Source of the DNA: Paraburkholderia ginsengisoli NBRC 100965
Lineage (GTDB): Bacteria > Pseudomonadota > Gammaproteobacteria > Burkholderiales > Burkholderiaceae
DNA: 64,000 nucleotides
Reading direction: 5' to 3'
Assembly (NCBI RefSeq): GCF_000739735.1
Contig: NZ_BBJF01000017.1
Coordinates: 1-64,000 of the forward strand
In this document: piece after piece, positions 1-12,999 of the stretch
Numbering within the stretch: the stretch's first letter is position 1
How the letters are laid out: each line of letters starts with the position of its first letter
Notes under the pieces: model-generated
Databases searched by the model: none
What the model was told of the DNA's origin: nothing
What the model saw: the letters and a program-made list of their open reading frames with translations, nothing else
Made by a program: the position numbers and the translations under genes

Positions 1-1902
1 ACTATTCTCACGGCTCACCGCCGTGCTGAGTCCGGTCGACGTCGAGGTCGACAGCGAGCTCAACCCGGTCGACAGGCTACCCACCGTGCTGTTGGTCGTG
101 CTCAGTCCCGTGGACAACGAGTTCACACCGCTCTGCGCAGTACTGATGCCCGTTGACGTGGACGACGACAGGCTGGTCAAGCTGCTGTTGGTCGTGCTCA
201 GGCCCGTCGACAACGAACTCAGGCCAGTCGACGTCGAGGTCGACAATGTGTTGATCGCCGTCGTAGCCGCATACAACTGACTGCCGTTGATAGCGTCCGT
301 GCTCGCGGCGCTGATGCGGCCGGCAGCGACGTTCGTGATCTGGCGTTCGGCGCCGGCAGCGCCAACGCTCACCACGCCGCCAGCAGCCGGAGCGCCTCCG
401 GCAAACGTGTACGACGTGCCGCCGATGGTCGCGCTCGGCGTCGGATTGGACGCTGCAACGGTGGAACTATTGCCGAGGACCACGGCGCCATCCAGCCCGG
501 TCGGCACCGTGATGTTGTTGCCCACCGCGAACGCGTTATTCGAGCTGATGCTGTTGTTGTTACCAAGCGAATACGAGCCGGCGCCCGTAATGGTGGTCGG
601 ATCGCCGATCGCGCCGGAGCTCGCCCCGCTGACCACGTTGCCCGTGCCAATGCTGATCGCCTGCGAGCCGGTGGCTTTCGCGCCGTTGCCGATAGCGATG
701 CTGTTGATGTTGGCCGCATTGCCGCTCACGCCGGCGGTCGCATTCAGACCCATCGCAACGGAATTGGCGCCATAGGCGTTCGATTGACCGCCAATCGCGA
801 CGGAATTCGCAGCCGCAGCGGAAGCGCCGGCCGTCGCGTTACCGCCGATGGCTACCGAGCCATCACCAGCCGCCCGAGCACCCGAAAAAGAGCCTGAAAC
901 GCCACCACCGCCCAGTGCCGTGGCATTAATTCCCGACGCGGTAGCAAAATTGCCGTAAGCAGACGCCCCTGTGTTGCTTGCAGTAGCCGAATTACCTGTG
1001 GCAACTGAATTCGCTCCGCTTGCCGATGCGTAATTGCCCACGGCGGTCGCGAAGTTGGCGGTCGCATTTGCAGTATTGCCGAAGGCCGACGCATCACTGC
1101 CAGCGGCGCGGGCAGAATATCCGATCGCGGTCGCAGACAATCCGGTGCCGCTGGCGCCATTGGCCGACGCATTTTGCCCAATAGCAACGTCGCCGCTCGT
1201 GACCGCCTTCGTGCCGCTCCCCAGAGCTATCGCGTTATCGCCGGCGGCGCTCGCTCCGACGGCGCCCTCGCCAATCGCAATCGAAGCGGTACCGATCGTG
1301 GCAGCCAGCGTGGCCGCGCTACCGATACGCATCGAGCCCGCGGCCGTTCCGCCACCCAACCCGAGAAGACCCGAGTTCACATAAAGCTCACCGCCCAGCG
1401 ACAGCGAATTGGAACCGGCGCCGCTCGACGGACCATAGAACAATGCGCGGTTGGTTTGCGTTCCCTTGTCGGTCGTCGTGCACGTTGAACTTGCCGCACC
1501 GAGGGCGGCGACCGACGGGACTGGCGTCGCCGCACCGAGCGACCCGAGAGCCATCGAGTTCGCTCCGGAAGGCGTGGGATTACCGCCACCGTAATTGCCC
1601 ATCACGGACACACCTGCGGTGTCGAAAGTCCAGAGACAGGCGGCGTCCGTACCGTCGTTGATGAAAATGCCGGGGCCGGCATGTGCCGATGTCGCGGCAA
1701 TACCGAGCACTGCCGCACTGACGGATCGCAACACCTGGACATTCACCCGCTTGCCGCCGACACCGTTCGCCGAGCCGCCATCGTTACCGCCCGCAGCGAC
1801 GGTCGCCGACCGGCTGCGCTTGCCTCTCGCCGCAACGATTTCCGAAGCCGCTACCCATGCCCCGAGGGCTTCATTCCAAATCGATCGATATGTCTTATTC
1901 AT
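1..1902 (-). CDS. YadA-like trimeric autotransporter adhesin, N-terminal part (runs off left edge)
   Basis: The frame is open from the ATG at 1902 to the window edge (634 codons, no stop), so the stalk end and membrane anchor lie outside. The N-terminus is an extended signal peptide region starting MNKTYRSIWNEALGAWVA, followed by a basic stretch, a hydrophobic core and an Ala-X-Ala-type cleavage site around residue 76. Next comes a long head of YadA-type repeats (NSVAIG, NAIALG, NSVAMG variants), then a neck containing STDAINGSQLYA near residue 540. Last is a Ser/Thr/Leu-rich stalk (LSTSTSTGLST repeats). Family knowledge: type Vc secretion, homotrimeric surface adhesin binding host or abiotic surfaces. 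Ligand unknown. The promoter should lie in the AT-rich stretch just above 1902. Confidence 0.93.
   Translation of the reverse strand, partial: MNKTYRSIWNEALGAWVAASEIVAARGKRSRSATVAAGGNDGGSANGVGGKRVNVQVLRSVSAAVLGIAATSAHAGPGIFINDGTDAACLWTFDTAGVSVMGNYGGGNPTPSGANSMALGSLGAATPVPSVAALGAASSTCTTTDKGTQTNRALFYGPSSGAGSNSLSLGGELYVNSGLLGLGGGTAAGSMRIGSAATLAATIGTASIAIGEGAVGASAAGDNAIALGSGTKAVTSGDVAIGQNASANGASGTGLSATAIGYSARAAGSDASAFGNTANATANFATAVGNYASASGANSVATGNSATASNTGASAYGNFATASGINATALGGGGVSGSFSGARAAGDGSVAIGGNATAGASAAAANSVAIGGQSNAYGANSVAMGLNATAGVSGNAANINSIAIGNGAKATGSQAISIGTGNVVSGASSGAIGDPTTITGAGSYSLGNNNSISSNNAFAVGNNITVPTGLDGAVVLGNSSTVAASNPTPSATIGGTSYTFAGGAPAAGGVVSVGAAGAERQITNVAAGRISAASTDAINGSQLYAATTAINTLSTSTSTGLSSLSTGLSTTNSSLTSLSSSTSTGISTAQSGVNSLSTGLSTTNSTVGSLSTGLSSLSTSTSTGLSTAVSRENS
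88..201. repeat. 96-base period direct repeat in adhesin stalk
   Basis: An 18-base word (GCTGTTGGTCGTGCTCAG) occurs at 88-105 and again at 184-201, 96 bases apart, which equals 32 residues of stalk. The flanking bases also match partly. It encodes the LSTxxSTGLS-type coiled-coil stalk and could allow length change by recombination. Confidence 0.7.
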
Positions 1903-5434: not shown

Positions 5435-5695
5435 ATGCGTACTGTTTCCATCTTCAAGAATAGCACCAGCCAGGCAGTTCGCATTCCGAAGGATATGCGG
5501 TTCGAAGGTGTGACCGAGCTCGAGATCCGGCGTGAAGGCGACACCATCCTGCTGCGGCCCGCACGTCCGAGCTGGATTTCTTTCGCCGATGAGCCCCGTG
5601 CCGATGCCGACTTCATGTCCGGGCGCGCCGCCGTCTTTCGGGCAGGCCGGTATGACCTGCCCGATGCAGTCGACGCTCAGGAGTCAGCATCGTGA
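5435..5695 (+). CDS. vapB: VapB-type antitoxin (AbrB/MazE-fold)
   Basis: 86 residues. The N-terminal half (VSIFKNSTSQAVRIPKDMRF, then ELEIRREGDTILLRPARPSW) is the swapped-hairpin DNA-binding fold of VapB antitoxins. The acidic C-terminal tail is the usual toxin-neutralising segment. The stop overlaps the toxin start (GTGA), so translation of the pair is coupled and antitoxin is made first. A palindrome-covered promoter lies 50-95 bases upstream. In this family the antitoxin binds VapC and the complex represses the operon. Confidence 0.9.
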   Translation: MRTVSIFKNSTSQAVRIPKDMRFEGVTELEIRREGDTILLRPARPSWISFADEPRADADFMSGRAAVFRAGRYDLPDAVDAQESAS

Positions 5696-6144
5696 CCCAG
5701 CTCTATATGCTGGACACCAGCATCTGCTCATTGGTCGTGCGCGAGCGGCCTCAGTGCATTCTGGCCAGGCTGCAGGCCTGCAACGCCCAGCAGCGCATTG
5801 TCATCTCCGCCATCACGTACGCGGAAATGCGCTTTGCCTCAGCGGGGAAAATAGACTCCCCCACGCACGCGCAACTGGTGTCGGCTTTCGTCGCGCGCCT
5901 CGACGGCGTTTTGCCGTGGGATGCGATGGCTGCGGACCGAACCATACGAGTGCGCGTCGAGCTCGCCCATCTGGGTGCCCCAATCAGTGAGAACGATGCG
6001 GCGATTGCAGGTCACGCGCTCGCGGTGGGCGCCATTCTCGTGACCAACAACGCGCGGGAATTCCGACACGTGCGGGGACTTCATATCGAAGACTGGGCAA
6101 AACCGGCAGTGAGCCAGCGCGCGACCGAGCCGGAGAAGCTATGA
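5692..6144 (+). CDS. vapC: VapC-type PIN-domain ribonuclease toxin
   Basis: 150 residues, starting with GTG at 5692 and overlapping vapB by four bases. PIN-domain acidic residues are visible: D8 (YMLDTS), E45 (ITYAEM) and D102 (SENDAAIAGHALA), followed by the common VTNNAREF motif. Family knowledge: Mg2+-dependent RNase, often cutting initiator tRNA or rRNA, inhibited by VapB. The residues past the PIN fold (after about 138) form a short charged tail. The active site appears intact. Confidence 0.92.
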   Translation: MTQLYMLDTSICSLVVRERPQCILARLQACNAQQRIVISAITYAEMRFASAGKIDSPTHAQLVSAFVARLDGVLPWDAMAADRTIRVRVELAHLGAPISENDAAIAGHALAVGAILVTNNAREFRHVRGLHIEDWAKPAVSQRATEPEKL

Positions 6145-7005: not shown

Positions 7006-7740
7006 CTAACAGCAGCAATCGAGACTGACCTTGAAGTACTCATAGCTATACGTGATGCTACGCTTGACGTCGCGCACATCCTGCGCTTGTGGTGCACGCC
7101 CGAGCAGCGTAGCGACGATATCCAGTGCTTCCCACGGATGCGCATCGTCGTAATGCGCGTGCATTTTCAGCCACCGCATCGCACGCTTACGGATTTCCTC
7201 CGGATAGCTACTCTCGAGTACGCCGCTACTGCAGACAAGCGTCGACCAGTCGCCGGTGACGCCTTCAATGGCGAAATTGGTCGCGGCGATTGCTGCCGGC
7301 AATGAATCGCTGCTGCTGCTTTTCCAGCACCAGTGGCTTAATGCATAAGCGAGCGAAGGCCCCGTCGCATTCTGCATTGCCTCACGCGACACGTCGTGCG
7401 CAGCGGCCCAATCAACCCAGTAGTCGGCGTGATTCTGCTCGATTCGAATATTGCGCGTGAGGTACCGGCGAGCCATTCTTGTCCCGGGTGTCTCATGCGG
7501 GCCAAGCTTCCGCAGATTCATACCCATATACTGCGGGAACTGATCGATAACGGGCCAACCGTTCACGAGAAATGCACGCATTTCCCGTTCATTGAGCCGG
7601 TTATCACGCATCGCTGCAAATAGCGGATGCCCGGTCACTTCCTGTCTTACCGCCAGCGTTTCACCCACCACATCCTGCACCCAGCGTGGATAGCTCGCGA
7701 TGTCCTTCAGATCCCCTTCCCTGCAGAACGACTCAACCAT
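7006..7740 (-). CDS. Heme-oxygenase-like diiron oxidase (TenA/PqqC-like fold, UndA-type motif)
   Basis: 244 residues. The candidate metal ligands E101 and H104 (RIEQNHADYW), E159 (NFAIEGVTGDW) and H194, D198, H201 (MHAHYDDAHPWEA) reproduce the E-x2-H / E / H-x3-D-x2-H pattern of heme-oxygenase-like diiron oxidases such as the fatty-acid decarboxylase UndA. Its ATG overlaps by one base the stop of the GGDEF-EAL gene (TAATG). A strong GGAGGT lies inside that gene's end, so the two are translationally coupled. The frame runs on upstream to 7926, but that part is shadow of the EAL gene. The protein ends oddly in Asp-Cys-Cys-Cys. Substrate unknown; annotation pipelines may call it TenA family. Confidence 0.82.
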   Translation of the reverse strand: MVESFCREGDLKDIASYPRWVQDVVGETLAVRQEVTGHPLFAAMRDNRLNEREMRAFLVNGWPVIDQFPQYMGMNLRKLGPHETPGTRMARRYLTRNIRIEQNHADYWVDWAAAHDVSREAMQNATGPSLAYALSHWCWKSSSSDSLPAAIAATNFAIEGVTGDWSTLVCSSGVLESSYPEEIRKRAMRWLKMHAHYDDAHPWEALDIVATLLGRAPQAQDVRDVKRSITYSYEYFKVSLDCCC

Positions 7741-10196
7741 TACACCTCCTGCGTACACACCTCGGCCTCGATCCAAGGGGCGGGCTGCCCCAAGTAGTAA
7801 CCCTGCGCGCAATCCACACCCAGTCGGCGCAGCGCCTCCAAAACTTCTGCGCTCCCCACGTACTCGGCAATCGTCTTGCACTTCATCGCGTGTCCCATAT
7901 CGTTGATTGCGGCAACGATGTCGCAACTGACAGCGTCATGACTGATGTCCCTGACGAAGCTCCCATCGATCTTCAGATATTCAACCGGCAATTGCTTCAG
8001 ATAGCCGAAAGAGGACATCCCGGCACCGAAGTCGTCCAGCGCGAAGCGGCAGCCCATTCTGGTTAGCTCACGCATGAAACGGACGGCGGGAGTGAGATTG
8101 GCAATCGCCGCTGTCTCCGTAATCTCAAAGCAGATGAGACTTGGCGCAACACCTGTACGGACGAACTGCTCACGGACGAAATCAAGGAAGCGTTCATCCC
8201 CGATCGACGAACCCGACAGATTGATGCCGTATTGAGCGAAGTACGGCGTCTCGATGCGAGACAACCGTTCCAGCGCCGTCCGAATCACCCAGCGGTCGAT
8301 CGCCGGCATGAGCCCGTACCGCTCCGCCGCGGGAATGAAGAGGCCCGGCGCCACCACGCCGCCTCCAGAGCTTCTCGCATTCATCCGTAACAGGAGTTCC
8401 GCGTGATATCCACGCGGGGCGCCGAGCGAACTCGCTTCGTTGATCTCCACAATCGGCTGGACGTAAAGGCAGAACTCATCGGCCTCCATCGCCTGTTTGA
8501 CTCGTCGACCCCACGAGGCTTCGTCCACGTAGTGCAGCAATTCGCTATCGCACAGGTCCGCCAGTTGCACCCGGTTGCGACCTCTCTCCTTCGCCATGTA
8601 GCAAGCGACGTCGGCTAGTCTGAGCGCCTGTTCCACGGTCATGCCGCCGTCAATATCCACAATCTTCAACACGCCGACACTGACACTGGTCGTGCACGGC
8701 TGAGCTTCCCACATAAATACGAATTCATTCAGGCAGGTCCGGAGTTCTTCTGTGACCCGCTCGATGTCCGACGAGCAATAGTTCTGCAACAACACGCCGA
8801 ATTCATCACCCCCAAATCGTGCGAGGGTGTCGTTGGCGCGCAGGCACTGCTGGAACCGTTTCGCCACTTCGCGGAGCATCGAATCTCCCGCCGCGTGCCC
8901 ACAGGTATCGTTGACAACCCTGAAGCGATCGAGATCAAGAAATAGCAGCGCCGACGTTTCCTTCGCCAGCGGATCTTCGCGGGGCGTCTGAAGCGCGACA
9001 CGCAGGCGGCGCTCGAACTCAGCGCGATTCACGAGCCCGGTCAATGCATCGTGCAACGCCTGCCACGCGACGTTCTCGCGGTATTCGCGCTCTCGTGTCA
9101 TGTTGCGAAGTATGAGGACGTAGCCATTCGTATCCGAGTCACTGGCATCGTCACTAATCGGCGACGTCACTGCCTGTACGAATATCTCCTTACCGTCACC
9201 ACGCAGAAGCAGCATGTCTGCGGCTAAGCCGGCCTCACCCGGCTCGGTCAATTTGTTCGATACAGGGTTGACCGGCTCCCGGCTCCCTTCGTGCACCAGC
9301 CGAAGTGTCTCGTGCAAGCGCTTGCCGACACAATCAGCCGCAGGACGGCCCGATATCCGTTCGGCCGCGGCATTGATGAATTCAACATAGCCCGACGATC
9401 CTGTGACGATCACCGCCTCGCCTATCGAGCCAAGCGTCGCCTTCGCTCGCGCCTCACTTTCACGAAGCGCAATCTCAATCTGCCTACGCTCCAATATCGA
9501 ACGTCTCACGTGTAACGTGGACAGAAGCATCAGCAGGATCGAAGCGTAAAGATCGGTGGCCAACAGGAGCGTGGCCGTTCTACGAAATGCCGCACTGATC
9601 ACATCCGAAAACTTGCTCGCGAGCGGTCGGATCTCGACGTTGATCTGCCAAATCCGTTGTTTCAGATAGTCCGTCACGCCGCCCACTTGCGTCCCGCTCT
9701 GCAACTTTTCGCGCAAAGTCCGCACTATCTGGTCAAGCTGCTCCAGTTCCAAATCGCCCCGCGACCAGTAGCTCATTGCTTCACTAAAGTAGCCGGTATG
9801 GCGAAAGATTCTCGAAACCCAGATTACGTCGCCGACATCCTCCGGCGCTATTCCACTGTCAATCAGTGCGGTACGCGCAAACGCCGGATCGGGCGCACCT
9901 CGCGCAAACTCCAGTCGGACGCTTCTTAGCTTGCGCAAATTGTCGGCGGTGGCGAGATACTGTTTGTATGCATCTTCGCTGCCGGTCTCCGCATAGACTT
10001 GCGCGTAAAAAATTGCGTCTTTCTGCTCCTTCGACCACAGACTCTCACCAACAATATAAGTACGAGCGGAAGACATGACCCGGATGCTGACCGTGGCAAG
10101 AATCAACACGGCAAGTACAGCGAGGAGGAATGGTCCTGTGATCCGCAACAGTTGCGCGTTCAGGTATTTCGACGGGTTTTTCAAGACACTATCCAT
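7740..10196 (-). CDS. Membrane PAS-GGDEF-EAL c-di-GMP turnover protein
   Basis: 818 residues from the ATG at 10196; a TTG two codons earlier is also open. TM helix about 21-41, periplasmic sensor region to about 205, second TM about 210-230. Then a PAS domain (about 255-370), GGDEF (motif RFGGDEFGVLL, with RAND as an RxxD inhibitory site five residues earlier) and EAL (about 560-815). In the EAL domain the signature reads AELLLRM, with EITETA, ALDDFGAGMSSF, YLKIDGSFVRD and QGYYLGQP intact, so phosphodiesterase activity is plausible. Both catalytic halves look usable; the net direction cannot be told. It heads a two-gene unit with the diiron protein. Confidence 0.92.
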   Translation of the reverse strand: MDSVLKNPSKYLNAQLLRITGPFLLAVLAVLILATVSIRVMSSARTYIVGESLWSKEQKDAIFYAQVYAETGSEDAYKQYLATADNLRKLRSVRLEFARGAPDPAFARTALIDSGIAPEDVGDVIWVSRIFRHTGYFSEAMSYWSRGDLELEQLDQIVRTLREKLQSGTQVGGVTDYLKQRIWQINVEIRPLASKFSDVISAAFRRTATLLLATDLYASILLMLLSTLHVRRSILERRQIEIALRESEARAKATLGSIGEAVIVTGSSGYVEFINAAAERISGRPAADCVGKRLHETLRLVHEGSREPVNPVSNKLTEPGEAGLAADMLLLRGDGKEIFVQAVTSPISDDASDSDTNGYVLILRNMTREREYRENVAWQALHDALTGLVNRAEFERRLRVALQTPREDPLAKETSALLFLDLDRFRVVNDTCGHAAGDSMLREVAKRFQQCLRANDTLARFGGDEFGVLLQNYCSSDIERVTEELRTCLNEFVFMWEAQPCTTSVSVGVLKIVDIDGGMTVEQALRLADVACYMAKERGRNRVQLADLCDSELLHYVDEASWGRRVKQAMEADEFCLYVQPIVEINEASSLGAPRGYHAELLLRMNARSSGGGVVAPGLFIPAAERYGLMPAIDRWVIRTALERLSRIETPYFAQYGINLSGSSIGDERFLDFVREQFVRTGVAPSLICFEITETAAIANLTPAVRFMRELTRMGCRFALDDFGAGMSSFGYLKQLPVEYLKIDGSFVRDISHDAVSCDIVAAINDMGHAMKCKTIAEYVGSAEVLEALRRLGVDCAQGYYLGQPAPWIEAEVCTQEV

Positions 10197-10580: not shown

Positions 10581-11102
10581 CTATTCCGATGAAACGACCA
10601 CCGCGACCCGTCTGTTCTGGCTCCGACCGGACTTTGTGCCGTTATCCGCCACTGGACTCGACTCGCCATAACCACGCGTCCGAATGTTCTTGGCGGGGAT
10701 GCCAATGTCCACCAATAGATGCGCGACGGTCTTTGCGCGACGCACTGACAATTGCTGGTTATAGTTCGCGCCGCCGTCTGCATCGGTGTAACCATTCACG
10801 CAGATATGCTCGACGTTCATCGCGATCAGCACGTAACCAACGCGTTCGAGCGCGTGCCGGGCTTCCGGTCCTAAAGTCGCCTCGCCGCTGGCAAAGAGCA
10901 ATCGGTCTGCCCCGTCGAACTCCATCGCGTTACCGTCGGCCATCCGGCTGAATCCCGTGCGCTCGAGTGCAGCCACTTGGGTGTCGGTAAAATGGTGCGC
11001 GGGGTGCCACGACTGACAACCTGTCAGCAAAGCCAGCATCGGCGTGAGACTGAAAAAGCCATGCACGGCTCTTTCCGTGATCTTCCTTATAAATTCGCTC
11101 AA
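10581..11102 (-). CDS. yfiB: YfiB-like OmpA-family outer-membrane lipoprotein
   Basis: 173 residues starting with TTG at 11102. This start overlaps the yfiN stop by four bases (TTGA) and has GGAG six bases upstream, so it is preferred over the longer open frame to 11156. Signal peptide with lipobox LLTGC, Cys29 the lipidated residue. The C-terminal OmpA-like peptidoglycan-binding domain holds NGYTDADGGANYNQQLSVRR, with the Asp and Arg that bind diaminopimelate in this family. In the YfiBNR system YfiB sequesters YfiR at the outer membrane and so releases YfiN. Third gene of yfiR-yfiN-yfiB. Confidence 0.9.
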   Translation of the reverse strand: MSEFIRKITERAVHGFFSLTPMLALLTGCQSWHPAHHFTDTQVAALERTGFSRMADGNAMEFDGADRLLFASGEATLGPEARHALERVGYVLIAMNVEHICVNGYTDADGGANYNQQLSVRRAKTVAHLLVDIGIPAKNIRTRGYGESSPVADNGTKSGRSQNRRVAVVVSSE

Positions 11103-12382
11103 GGGCTTCTCCAACCATTTCTGACTTGCACATCCCGGCCGCCGCCAGCGACGCAATAGGTGCCACGCTCGTGCCGCTTGGCTTTATACATCGCAGCGTC
11201 CGCACTACGTAAAAGCGATGCGGCGTCGATTGCATGATCCGGAAAGATCGCAATACCGATACTCAAGGACGCGGTCAGATGTTCTTCTGACGGCAGCGAA
11301 ATCGGCTCCGCAATTCTGAGCCGGATGTTCTCGGCAAGGGCGACCGCGTGCTTTGCTTCCCCCAAGGGTTTCATGACAATCGCGAATTCGTCTCCGCCAA
11401 GCCTAGCGACCAGGTCGCTCTCGCGGACACTCGACTTGAGCCGGGCCGCAATGCCACATAGCACCGCGTCGCCCGCTTCGTGCCCGAGTTCGTCGTTAAC
11501 CGCTTTGAAACGGTCGACGTCGATAAAGAGCACCGCCACCCGCTCGCCGGATTCGAGCCCGCTTCTCAGGCATCGCTGAAGTTGTGCTTCAAAGAAAGCG
11601 CGATTTCTAACGCCGGTCAGAGGATCGTGGCTAGCCTGATGCGCGAGAGAAGCGTTTTCGAGTTCCACCTGCTTCTGCCACGATTCCATTTCGTCGAGCA
11701 GCGCATTGAAGTCGTCTCCCAACCGGTTCAGTTCAAGGATCGCGGTCGGCGCGACACGTTTGTCAAACATGCGCTCGCGTCTCACGGTGTACGCCGTTTG
11801 CGCCAGCTGTTGCAGGGGCAACACGATCTCCGAGCGGGTTCGATGTGAAAGGTAAAGCGCGCCCGCACCGCTTAGCGCGAGACACAGGGCAGCACCGGCA
11901 ATACTCAAGCTCAAAAACTTCAGCAGGTCCTCGCCTGATCCGTACAGCCTGATTTCGCCGACGGGTATGCCATCGTGCACGATGGACCTGATCACAGGCG
12001 CCGGCAGGATAAGCTTCGCAAGCTGCTGTTCGGCCAGAAACCTCGGGCCAGGTTCGCTACGCATCCATCCGGCGAACAGTTGACCATCGGCTGTCAATAC
12101 CTCCGCCTTCTCGACGCGTTCACGCGATACCACCAGCGTCAGCGAATCGACTGCCGCGCCCTGGTCGTCGAAGACCAATGCGGCTTCCACGGTATAGCTC
12201 GCGGCACGGGCCACAAGTTCGAGGTTGTAGTTGATATACATGCGCAGCATGACCAGGCCCGCGATGATAAACGACACCCCAACGAGCAGAACGGTAATCA
12301 ACGCTACGCTCAGGTGCGCGCGCCTCAGCACAGCGTTGAGCGTCAGTGGCGAGCGCCGGTCGATGGCATCGGGCTTGCTCAT
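11099..12382 (-). CDS. yfiN: YfiN-like membrane diguanylate cyclase
   Basis: 427 residues. N-terminal TM about 27-50, a periplasmic CHASE8-type domain to about 150 (SYTVEAALVFDDQGAA), a second TM (SLSIAGAALCLALSGAGALY), HAMP, then GGDEF with RLGGDEFAIVM and an RESD I-site five residues before. It makes c-di-GMP when not held off by periplasmic YfiR. It overlaps yfiR by four bases (ATGA) and yfiB by four (TTGA), so the operon is tightly coupled. Single GGDEF, no EAL. All catalytic signature residues are present, so activity is expected. Confidence 0.92.
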   Translation of the reverse strand: MSKPDAIDRRSPLTLNAVLRRAHLSVALITVLLVGVSFIIAGLVMLRMYINYNLELVARAASYTVEAALVFDDQGAAVDSLTLVVSRERVEKAEVLTADGQLFAGWMRSEPGPRFLAEQQLAKLILPAPVIRSIVHDGIPVGEIRLYGSGEDLLKFLSLSIAGAALCLALSGAGALYLSHRTRSEIVLPLQQLAQTAYTVRRERMFDKRVAPTAILELNRLGDDFNALLDEMESWQKQVELENASLAHQASHDPLTGVRNRAFFEAQLQRCLRSGLESGERVAVLFIDVDRFKAVNDELGHEAGDAVLCGIAARLKSSVRESDLVARLGGDEFAIVMKPLGEAKHAVALAENIRLRIAEPISLPSEEHLTASLSIGIAIFPDHAIDAASLLRSADAAMYKAKRHERGTYCVAGGGRDVQVRNGWRSP

Positions 12383-12999
12383 GGTTGAACAGGCTTACGA
12401 CGCCCGAGCAACAATACGTTCGGGCTGATTCTTATCCCGCTACGGGAAATCGCATCGAGATTCACTTTCAGCGAAAAGCGATTGCCGAGTGCGCGCAGAG
12501 AGAACATCGCACCGTCGGTACAATCTTCGCCCTGCTCTTCAATGGTCAGAATCTGCAACCGCTGTGAACCGGTCAACAGGTTCTTACGCGCCTCGCCCGG
12601 AAGCGCGCCGATATAGACCACATCACAGCTCGACAACGACGGCTCGCCACGCATCTCGAGATCCCGCATTTGCACGGGCCGACCGGCGACGACATTCGCC
12701 TGGACAGACATATCACGCAGATACGCCGTACCTCCCGCTACGCACAGTCGATACACCTCGGGCTGAACTGGCCAATGAGCGTAGCTGATAATGTCCAGCA
12801 CCGCGCGCGCAATGTTCGCGGGCGCGTCGATATCGCCGGGACTCAGGCGCTCCGCGAAGGCGGATTCCACCGGCATTAGCACGCATAAAACCGCGCCACA
12901 TATACCGATGAAGGTCAGGAAATTTTCACAAAACCTCTGTCCCGACTTTAACTGATGTACGACGGTGTTCAGTGCTCTCTCTGTCACGATATGAGGCAT
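12379..12999 (-). CDS. yfiR: YfiR family periplasmic repressor of YfiN
   Basis: 206 residues with a signal segment about 25-49 (FLTFIGICGAVLCVLMPVES, cleavage near AFA). The mature part has family features: YAHWPVQPEVYRLCVAGG, SSCDVVYIG, ILTIEEQGEDC and ISPNVLLLGRR. Cysteines C86, C125 and C160 keep the spacing of Pseudomonas YfiR C71, C110 and C145 as I recall it, but the partner of the second disulfide (C152) is Ser167 here. First gene of the operon. Role by family: binds the YfiN periplasmic domain and inhibits it; redox or envelope stress lifts this through YfiB. The start could be later than 12999. Confidence 0.88.
   Translation of the reverse strand: MPHIVTERALNTVVHQLKSGQRFCENFLTFIGICGAVLCVLMPVESAFAERLSPGDIDAPANIARAVLDIISYAHWPVQPEVYRLCVAGGTAYLRDMSVQANVVAGRPVQMRDLEMRGEPSLSSCDVVYIGALPGEARKNLLTGSQRLQILTIEEQGEDCTDGAMFSLRALGNRFSLKVNLDAISRSGIRISPNVLLLGRRKPVQP

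Follow-up and report, generated by a model that had tools for sequence, protein, structure and literature searches.

In Pseudomonas genomes, undA has been reported to be always associated with rbdA (Rui et al. 2014, as cited in PMC10614000). The undA mutant of MFE01 forms a flat biofilm, and airborne 1-undecene restores its maturation; 1-undecene has been discussed as a proposed airborne bacterial signal with an unknown detector, and work on RbdA was announced as planned (PMC10614000). A functional parallel is the RpfF-RpfR system, in which a fatty-acid signal synthase operates with a PAS-GGDEF-EAL receptor (PMC6361424).

Here, we analysed a stretch of 64,000 nucleotides from Paraburkholderia ginsengisoli NBRC 100965 (positions 1 to 64,000 of contig NZ_BBJF01000017.1, hereafter the window). 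An initial annotation made from the sequence alone had noted in it a diiron-oxidase-like gene coupled to a gene for c-di-GMP turnover and considered the pairing unusual. The association itself is not new: since undA-rbdA was already reported for Pseudomonas in 2014, according to the citation in PMC10614000, the pair in the window is of a known kind. As in Pseudomonas, the same orthologues lie on the same strand at short spacing with rbdA upstream, whereas the genes in the window overlap by 1 nt and adjoin yfiRNB, and those of Pseudomonas are separated by gaps of tens of bases. The window thus places a pair known from Pseudomonas in a new family. What is new here is its recurrence across three families, with the order reversed in one, as comparative evidence for functional pairing.

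Organization of the undA-rbdA locus

The two genes are joined at their stop and start codons (Table 1). The last A of the rbdA TAA (7740) is the first base of the undA ATG, giving a 1-nt overlap (...CAGGAGGTGTAATGG...), and GGAGGT lies within the end of rbdA, 3 nt ahead of the undA ATG, a slightly short spacing. Both the TAATG overlap and the GGAGGT inside the end of the GGDEF-EAL gene had been pointed out in the initial annotation and are borne out by the sequence. The closest relatives (L002-L007 and L024) likewise have the 1-nt overlap, together with AGGAGG. We propose, as the best explanation, that undA-rbdA is an operon in which RbdA and UndA are co-translated. The GC content of the pair is 57.5%, compared with 60.4% for the window, a difference that does not strongly indicate recent transfer. 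undA was absent among the approximately 20 sampled congeners listed.

Directly upstream of rbdA, on the same strand, lies a second and complete c-di-GMP module, yfiR-yfiN-yfiB, beyond which a glycosyltransferase gene is located on the opposite strand. A conserved yfi neighbourhood of undA-rbdA was rejected, as, of the loci retrieved, L002, the nearest relative, was the only one with the adjacency. The yfiRNB module is probably a unit separate from undA-rbdA.

Table 1 Features of the undA-rbdA locus and its surroundings. Positions refer to the window unless residues are stated.
Feature	Position	Strand	Basis or remark
PIN-domain, VapC-like protein	5692-6144	plus	between isocitrate dehydrogenase-like gene and undA
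undA, predicted heme-oxygenase-like diiron fatty-acid decarboxylase, 244 aa	7006..7740	minus	ATG at 7740; PDB UndA match, PF14518
Coupling junction	7738..7749	minus	GGAGGT (7749-7744), then TAATG; sequence reading
rbdA orthologue (PAS-GGDEF-EAL, 818 aa)	7740..10196	minus	ATG at 10196, TAA stop
rbdA segment encoding the N-terminal membrane/periplasmic sensor	9471..10169	minus	alignment; common to UndA partners in three families
RbdA, TM1	residues ~14-44		hydropathy
RbdA, periplasmic all-helical sensor			hydropathy; between TM1 and TM2
RbdA, TM2	residues ~207-228		hydropathy
RbdA, PAS	residues ~257-370		Pfam
RbdA, GGDEF	residues 380-542		Pfam
RbdA, EAL	residues 565-805		Pfam
yfiB	11156-10581	minus	Pfam OmpA; module 10581..12999
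yfiN	12382-11099	minus	Pfam CHASE8+GGDEF
yfiR	12999-12379	minus	Pfam YfiR/HmsC DUF4154

The encoded proteins

Residues 2-244 of the 244-aa protein match UndA in the PDB (4wwj, E = 1.2e-84; 6p5q, E = 2.3e-84; 3oql, E ~1e-84), and the PDB search returned no close structure besides these three UndA-type entries. Pfam assigns PF14518 alone, a general family of iron-containing redox enzymes. Compared with UndA (4wwj, 4wwz, and 6p5q), the match is full-length and includes W190, a residue near the diiron cluster whose role has been described (PMC13108848), and all of the 3H/3C diiron ligands, E101, H104, E159, H194, D198, and H201. All 78 homologues aligned share the six ligands and W190, and the overall identity to the linked Pseudomonas homologues is 46-48%. 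The initial annotation had named the same six ligands, had proposed an UndA-type heme-oxygenase-like oxidase, and had staked this reading on ligand conservation among homologues; it proved right on all three. These matches place the protein within UndA itself, the family of the decarboxylase that produces 1-undecene from lauric acid.

The 818-aa protein contains PAS, GGDEF, and EAL domains by Pfam, and its best PDB relative is RbdA (PA0861; 5xgb, E = 1.5e-158). Chance is excluded by E-values of 1.2e-84 for the UndA match and of this size for the RbdA match. The protein has the RbdA-type architecture TM-periplasmic-TM-PAS-GGDEF-EAL, with the GGDEF motif at 462, the inhibitory RxxD I-site at 453, and an ELL variant at 600. 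The EAL catalytic residues (E600, N659, E691, D721, D722, K742, E778, and Q798) are intact. The comparison with RbdA/PA0861 (5xgb and 8pps) shows the same architecture, with the EAL and GGDEF motifs and the ELL variant kept, and in the alignment the sensor domain is ~30-35% identical to the Pseudomonas sensors. We therefore assign it, by homology, as the orthologue of RbdA, the biofilm-dispersal phosphodiesterase of Pseudomonas, and the suspected coupling to a c-di-GMP turnover protein holds.

Linkage of undA to the sensor gene in three families

UndA and the RbdA N-terminal sensor were searched separately in the same 436 genomes of three families. A gene with the same N-terminal sensor and GGDEF-EAL adjoins 118 of 119 UndA copies, counts that are phylogenetically dependent and not independent trials. 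In Burkholderiaceae (200 genomes), the sensor gene lies directly upstream in 21 of 22 cases, and the single exception is a broken undA (G458, L075). It is likewise upstream in all 17 cases in Pseudomonadaceae (119 genomes), while in Rhodanobacteraceae (117 genomes) it lies directly downstream of all 80 UndA copies. Both gene orders share the same strand and tight spacing. GGDEF was matched 25 times in the 6.5-Mb host genome; as a rough estimate assuming ~6000 genes, a GGDEF neighbour is expected by chance for ~1% of genes. Chance adjacency of undA and rbdA was rejected on the 118/119 linkage, and the conservation of the pair beyond close relatives, which the initial annotation had suggested looking for, extends across three families.

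When the class was sampled evenly, UndA proved rare (3/274). undA was found in Caballeronia, Paraburkholderia, Janthinobacterium, Vogesella, and most sampled Rhodanobacteraceae, and its presence in these further genera corrects the view of 1-undecene as Pseudomonas-specific (PMC8246062).

Some loci depart from the pattern. Janthinobacterium (L025/L026) has UndA with no RbdA-type sensor anywhere in the genome. In G210 (L069, 4890-8202), a GAF-GGDEF-EAL gene whose product has no RbdA sensor is closely followed by the gene for a distant UndA-like protein that has the same ligands. This pairing, found in a single genome, is possibly a third, independent association; an association of this type in the G210 order gave one match among 4 genomes.

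The N-terminal sensor domain

The N-terminal sensor matched none of the curated Pfam models (Cache, CHASE, and 4HB_MCP included). When a profile was built from one linked group alone and run on the other, the sensors were recovered with median E-values of 1e-32 to 1e-35, and the hhalign probability was 100. AlphaFold models show the sensor as entirely helical, its two long ends spanning the membrane (mean pLDDT 85 and 88), and Foldseek found no significant match to these models in the PDB. The best likeness of the Rhodanobacteraceae model, at a non-significant E-value, was to the histidine-kinase sensor 4k0d, which is also the entry given for RbdA in PMC11372557. Since the helical bundle has no significant fold match in the PDB, no ligand class follows from it. 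In a model of the periplasmic domain of RbdA, small aliphatic residues line a closed cavity, from which hydrophobic ligands were suggested; acyl-homoserine lactone was docked in the cavity, and 1-undecene is not mentioned there (PMC11372557).

The conserved residues of the sensor are E51, W54, K56, Y68, R94, W144, D148, and F196. No residue signature was found that tells linked from unlinked sensors; since these residues are equally conserved without UndA, nothing in the sequence marks a UndA-specific ligand. Sensor genes also occur without any UndA in 22 Burkholderiaceae, 13 Pseudomonadaceae, and 10 Rhodanobacteraceae genomes, and the ligand therefore need not be UndA-specific. In L058-L060, the same sensor domain is fused to PAS-PAS-GGDEF (Pfam on L058), with neither EAL nor a nearby UndA.

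Two arrangements of the pair

The partner in Rhodanobacteraceae carries this sensor domain as well, but it contains PAS-PAS and its GGDEF-EAL part is only ~30% identical. In an unrooted tree of the sensor, unlinked proteins separate the upstream-linked from the downstream-linked ones, and forcing all linked sensors into one clade was rejected (delta lnL 425, AU p 1e-9). The GGDEF-EAL tree likewise holds the two linked groups apart. Because unlinked sensors part the two linked clades, the link between undA and the sensor was probably gained at least twice independently, although, as the trees are unrooted, a single gain combined with several losses and a swap of gene order could give the same picture. 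A single ancestral pairing followed by loss only is disfavoured, as the linked sensors do not form one clade. That the link recurs with a single sensor domain, and in both gene orders, speaks against an accident and in favour of a tie to the input of the sensor.

Models for the undA-rbdA linkage

Judging from the comparative sequence data, the undA-rbdA linkage is very probably functional, and the chance that it runs through a ligand seems about even. Our preferred model, held at slightly below even, makes UndA the synthase and RbdA the receptor of a pair resembling RpfF-RpfR. UndA would use its diiron centre and O2 to convert lauric acid (C12) to 1-undecene and CO2. RbdA would be an inner-membrane c-di-GMP phosphodiesterase, with a GGDEF domain that may be regulatory or active, and its output would set biofilm maturation and dispersal. 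The helical sensor at the N terminus of RbdA, or else the PAS domain, would respond either to the C11 alkene from UndA or to the medium-chain fatty acid that UndA consumes. c-di-GMP turnover would thereby track the flux through UndA and, with it, O2, the supply of fatty acids, and confinement. The element common to both linked groups is the sensor domain, which suggests support for the synthase-receptor model. The idea of the initial annotation that UndA makes or destroys a ligand of the sensor is, as we infer, the one to favour here too.

The parallel with RpfF-RpfR is one of how the systems may work, an enzyme on C12 fatty acyl chains being paired with a c-di-GMP enzyme. RpfR senses with its PAS domain and has an FI domain, whereas RbdA sits in the membrane and has a periplasmic domain. 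RpfF, the BDSF synthase, is of the crotonase type and unrelated to UndA. Membership of the pair in RpfF-RpfR was rejected, as the partner is a heme-oxygenase-like diiron protein and not of the crotonase fold.

Several observations count against the synthase-receptor model. The reported cues of RbdA (Mn2+, NO, glutamate, and the cis-2-decenoic acid pathway) differ from the proposed ligand. Loss of undA reduces biofilm, yet RbdA as a phosphodiesterase also reduces biofilm. The sensor residues are the same where UndA is missing, G210 has a GAF partner, and the Janthinobacterium UndA lacks the sensor. The most specific form of the synthase-receptor model, a volatile-alkene autoinducer system assembled at least twice independently, in opposite gene orders and with the same sensor domain, in which the helical periplasmic domain of RbdA would be the 1-undecene receptor, is rather unlikely. 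If this holds, a gas-phase hydrocarbon signal would drive a c-di-GMP system. If the partner gene encodes the 1-undecene detector, the repeated pairing names the domain to test and hosts outside Pseudomonas.

A serious rival, though somewhat unlikely, is a shared output with no ligand link, in which undA and rbdA would share a transcript for a dense or ageing biofilm stage and the RbdA cue would be unrelated to UndA. The tight same-strand spacing in both arrangements is consistent with it, as is the higher undA expression in older P. aeruginosa lawns (PMC8246062), and the sensorless GAF-GGDEF-EAL protein of G210 points to c-di-GMP output as the common factor. However, the two associations took the same sensor domain despite the many GGDEF genes available (25 here).

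UndA might instead destroy a DSF-like C10-C14 acid cue sensed by RbdA and thus act as an off switch, a reading we regard as improbable. UndA takes free C10-C14 acids (PMC10614000), dispersion by cis-2-decenoic acid needs RbdA (PMC10746223), and the conserved K56 and R94 of the sensor could, in our inference, bind a carboxylate. On the other hand, the identified sensor of cis-2-decenoic acid is DspS, downstream of which RbdA acts (PMC10746223), and pure 1-undecene on its own is enough to restore the biofilm of the undA mutant (PMC10614000), an effect that removing a cue would leave unexplained.

Direct contact, in which UndA would bind RbdA and RbdA would control UndA activity as the RpfR FI domain controls RpfF, is very unlikely. 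The translational coupling of rbdA and undA and the precedent of RpfR-RpfF contact (PMC6361424) would fit, but no FI-like cytoplasmic interaction domain was found in RbdA, whose extra N-terminal region is membrane or periplasmic while UndA is cytoplasmic. The gene order is also reversed in Rhodanobacteraceae, and the overlap in cis is therefore not essential. The least supported idea, raised in the initial annotation, is that the diiron protein itself senses iron or oxygen for RbdA: UndA requires Fe2+ and O2 (PMC13108848) and its cluster is labile, but the protein groups within a family whose characterised member is a metabolic enzyme, keeps the ligands and W190 of that enzyme, and has catalytic decarboxylases as homologues with no indication of a non-catalytic role, making this extremely unlikely.

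Broken undA loci and a histidine-kinase neighbour

Stops or frameshifts interrupt undA in the symbiont Burkholderia/Caballeronia loci L020, L054, and L055 and in G458 (L075), and rbdA is also broken in L054 and L055. In two gammaproteobacterial MAGs (L027, 1612-5924; L030, 541-4477), UndA is convergent with a hybrid histidine kinase, which takes the place of the GGDEF-EAL neighbour.
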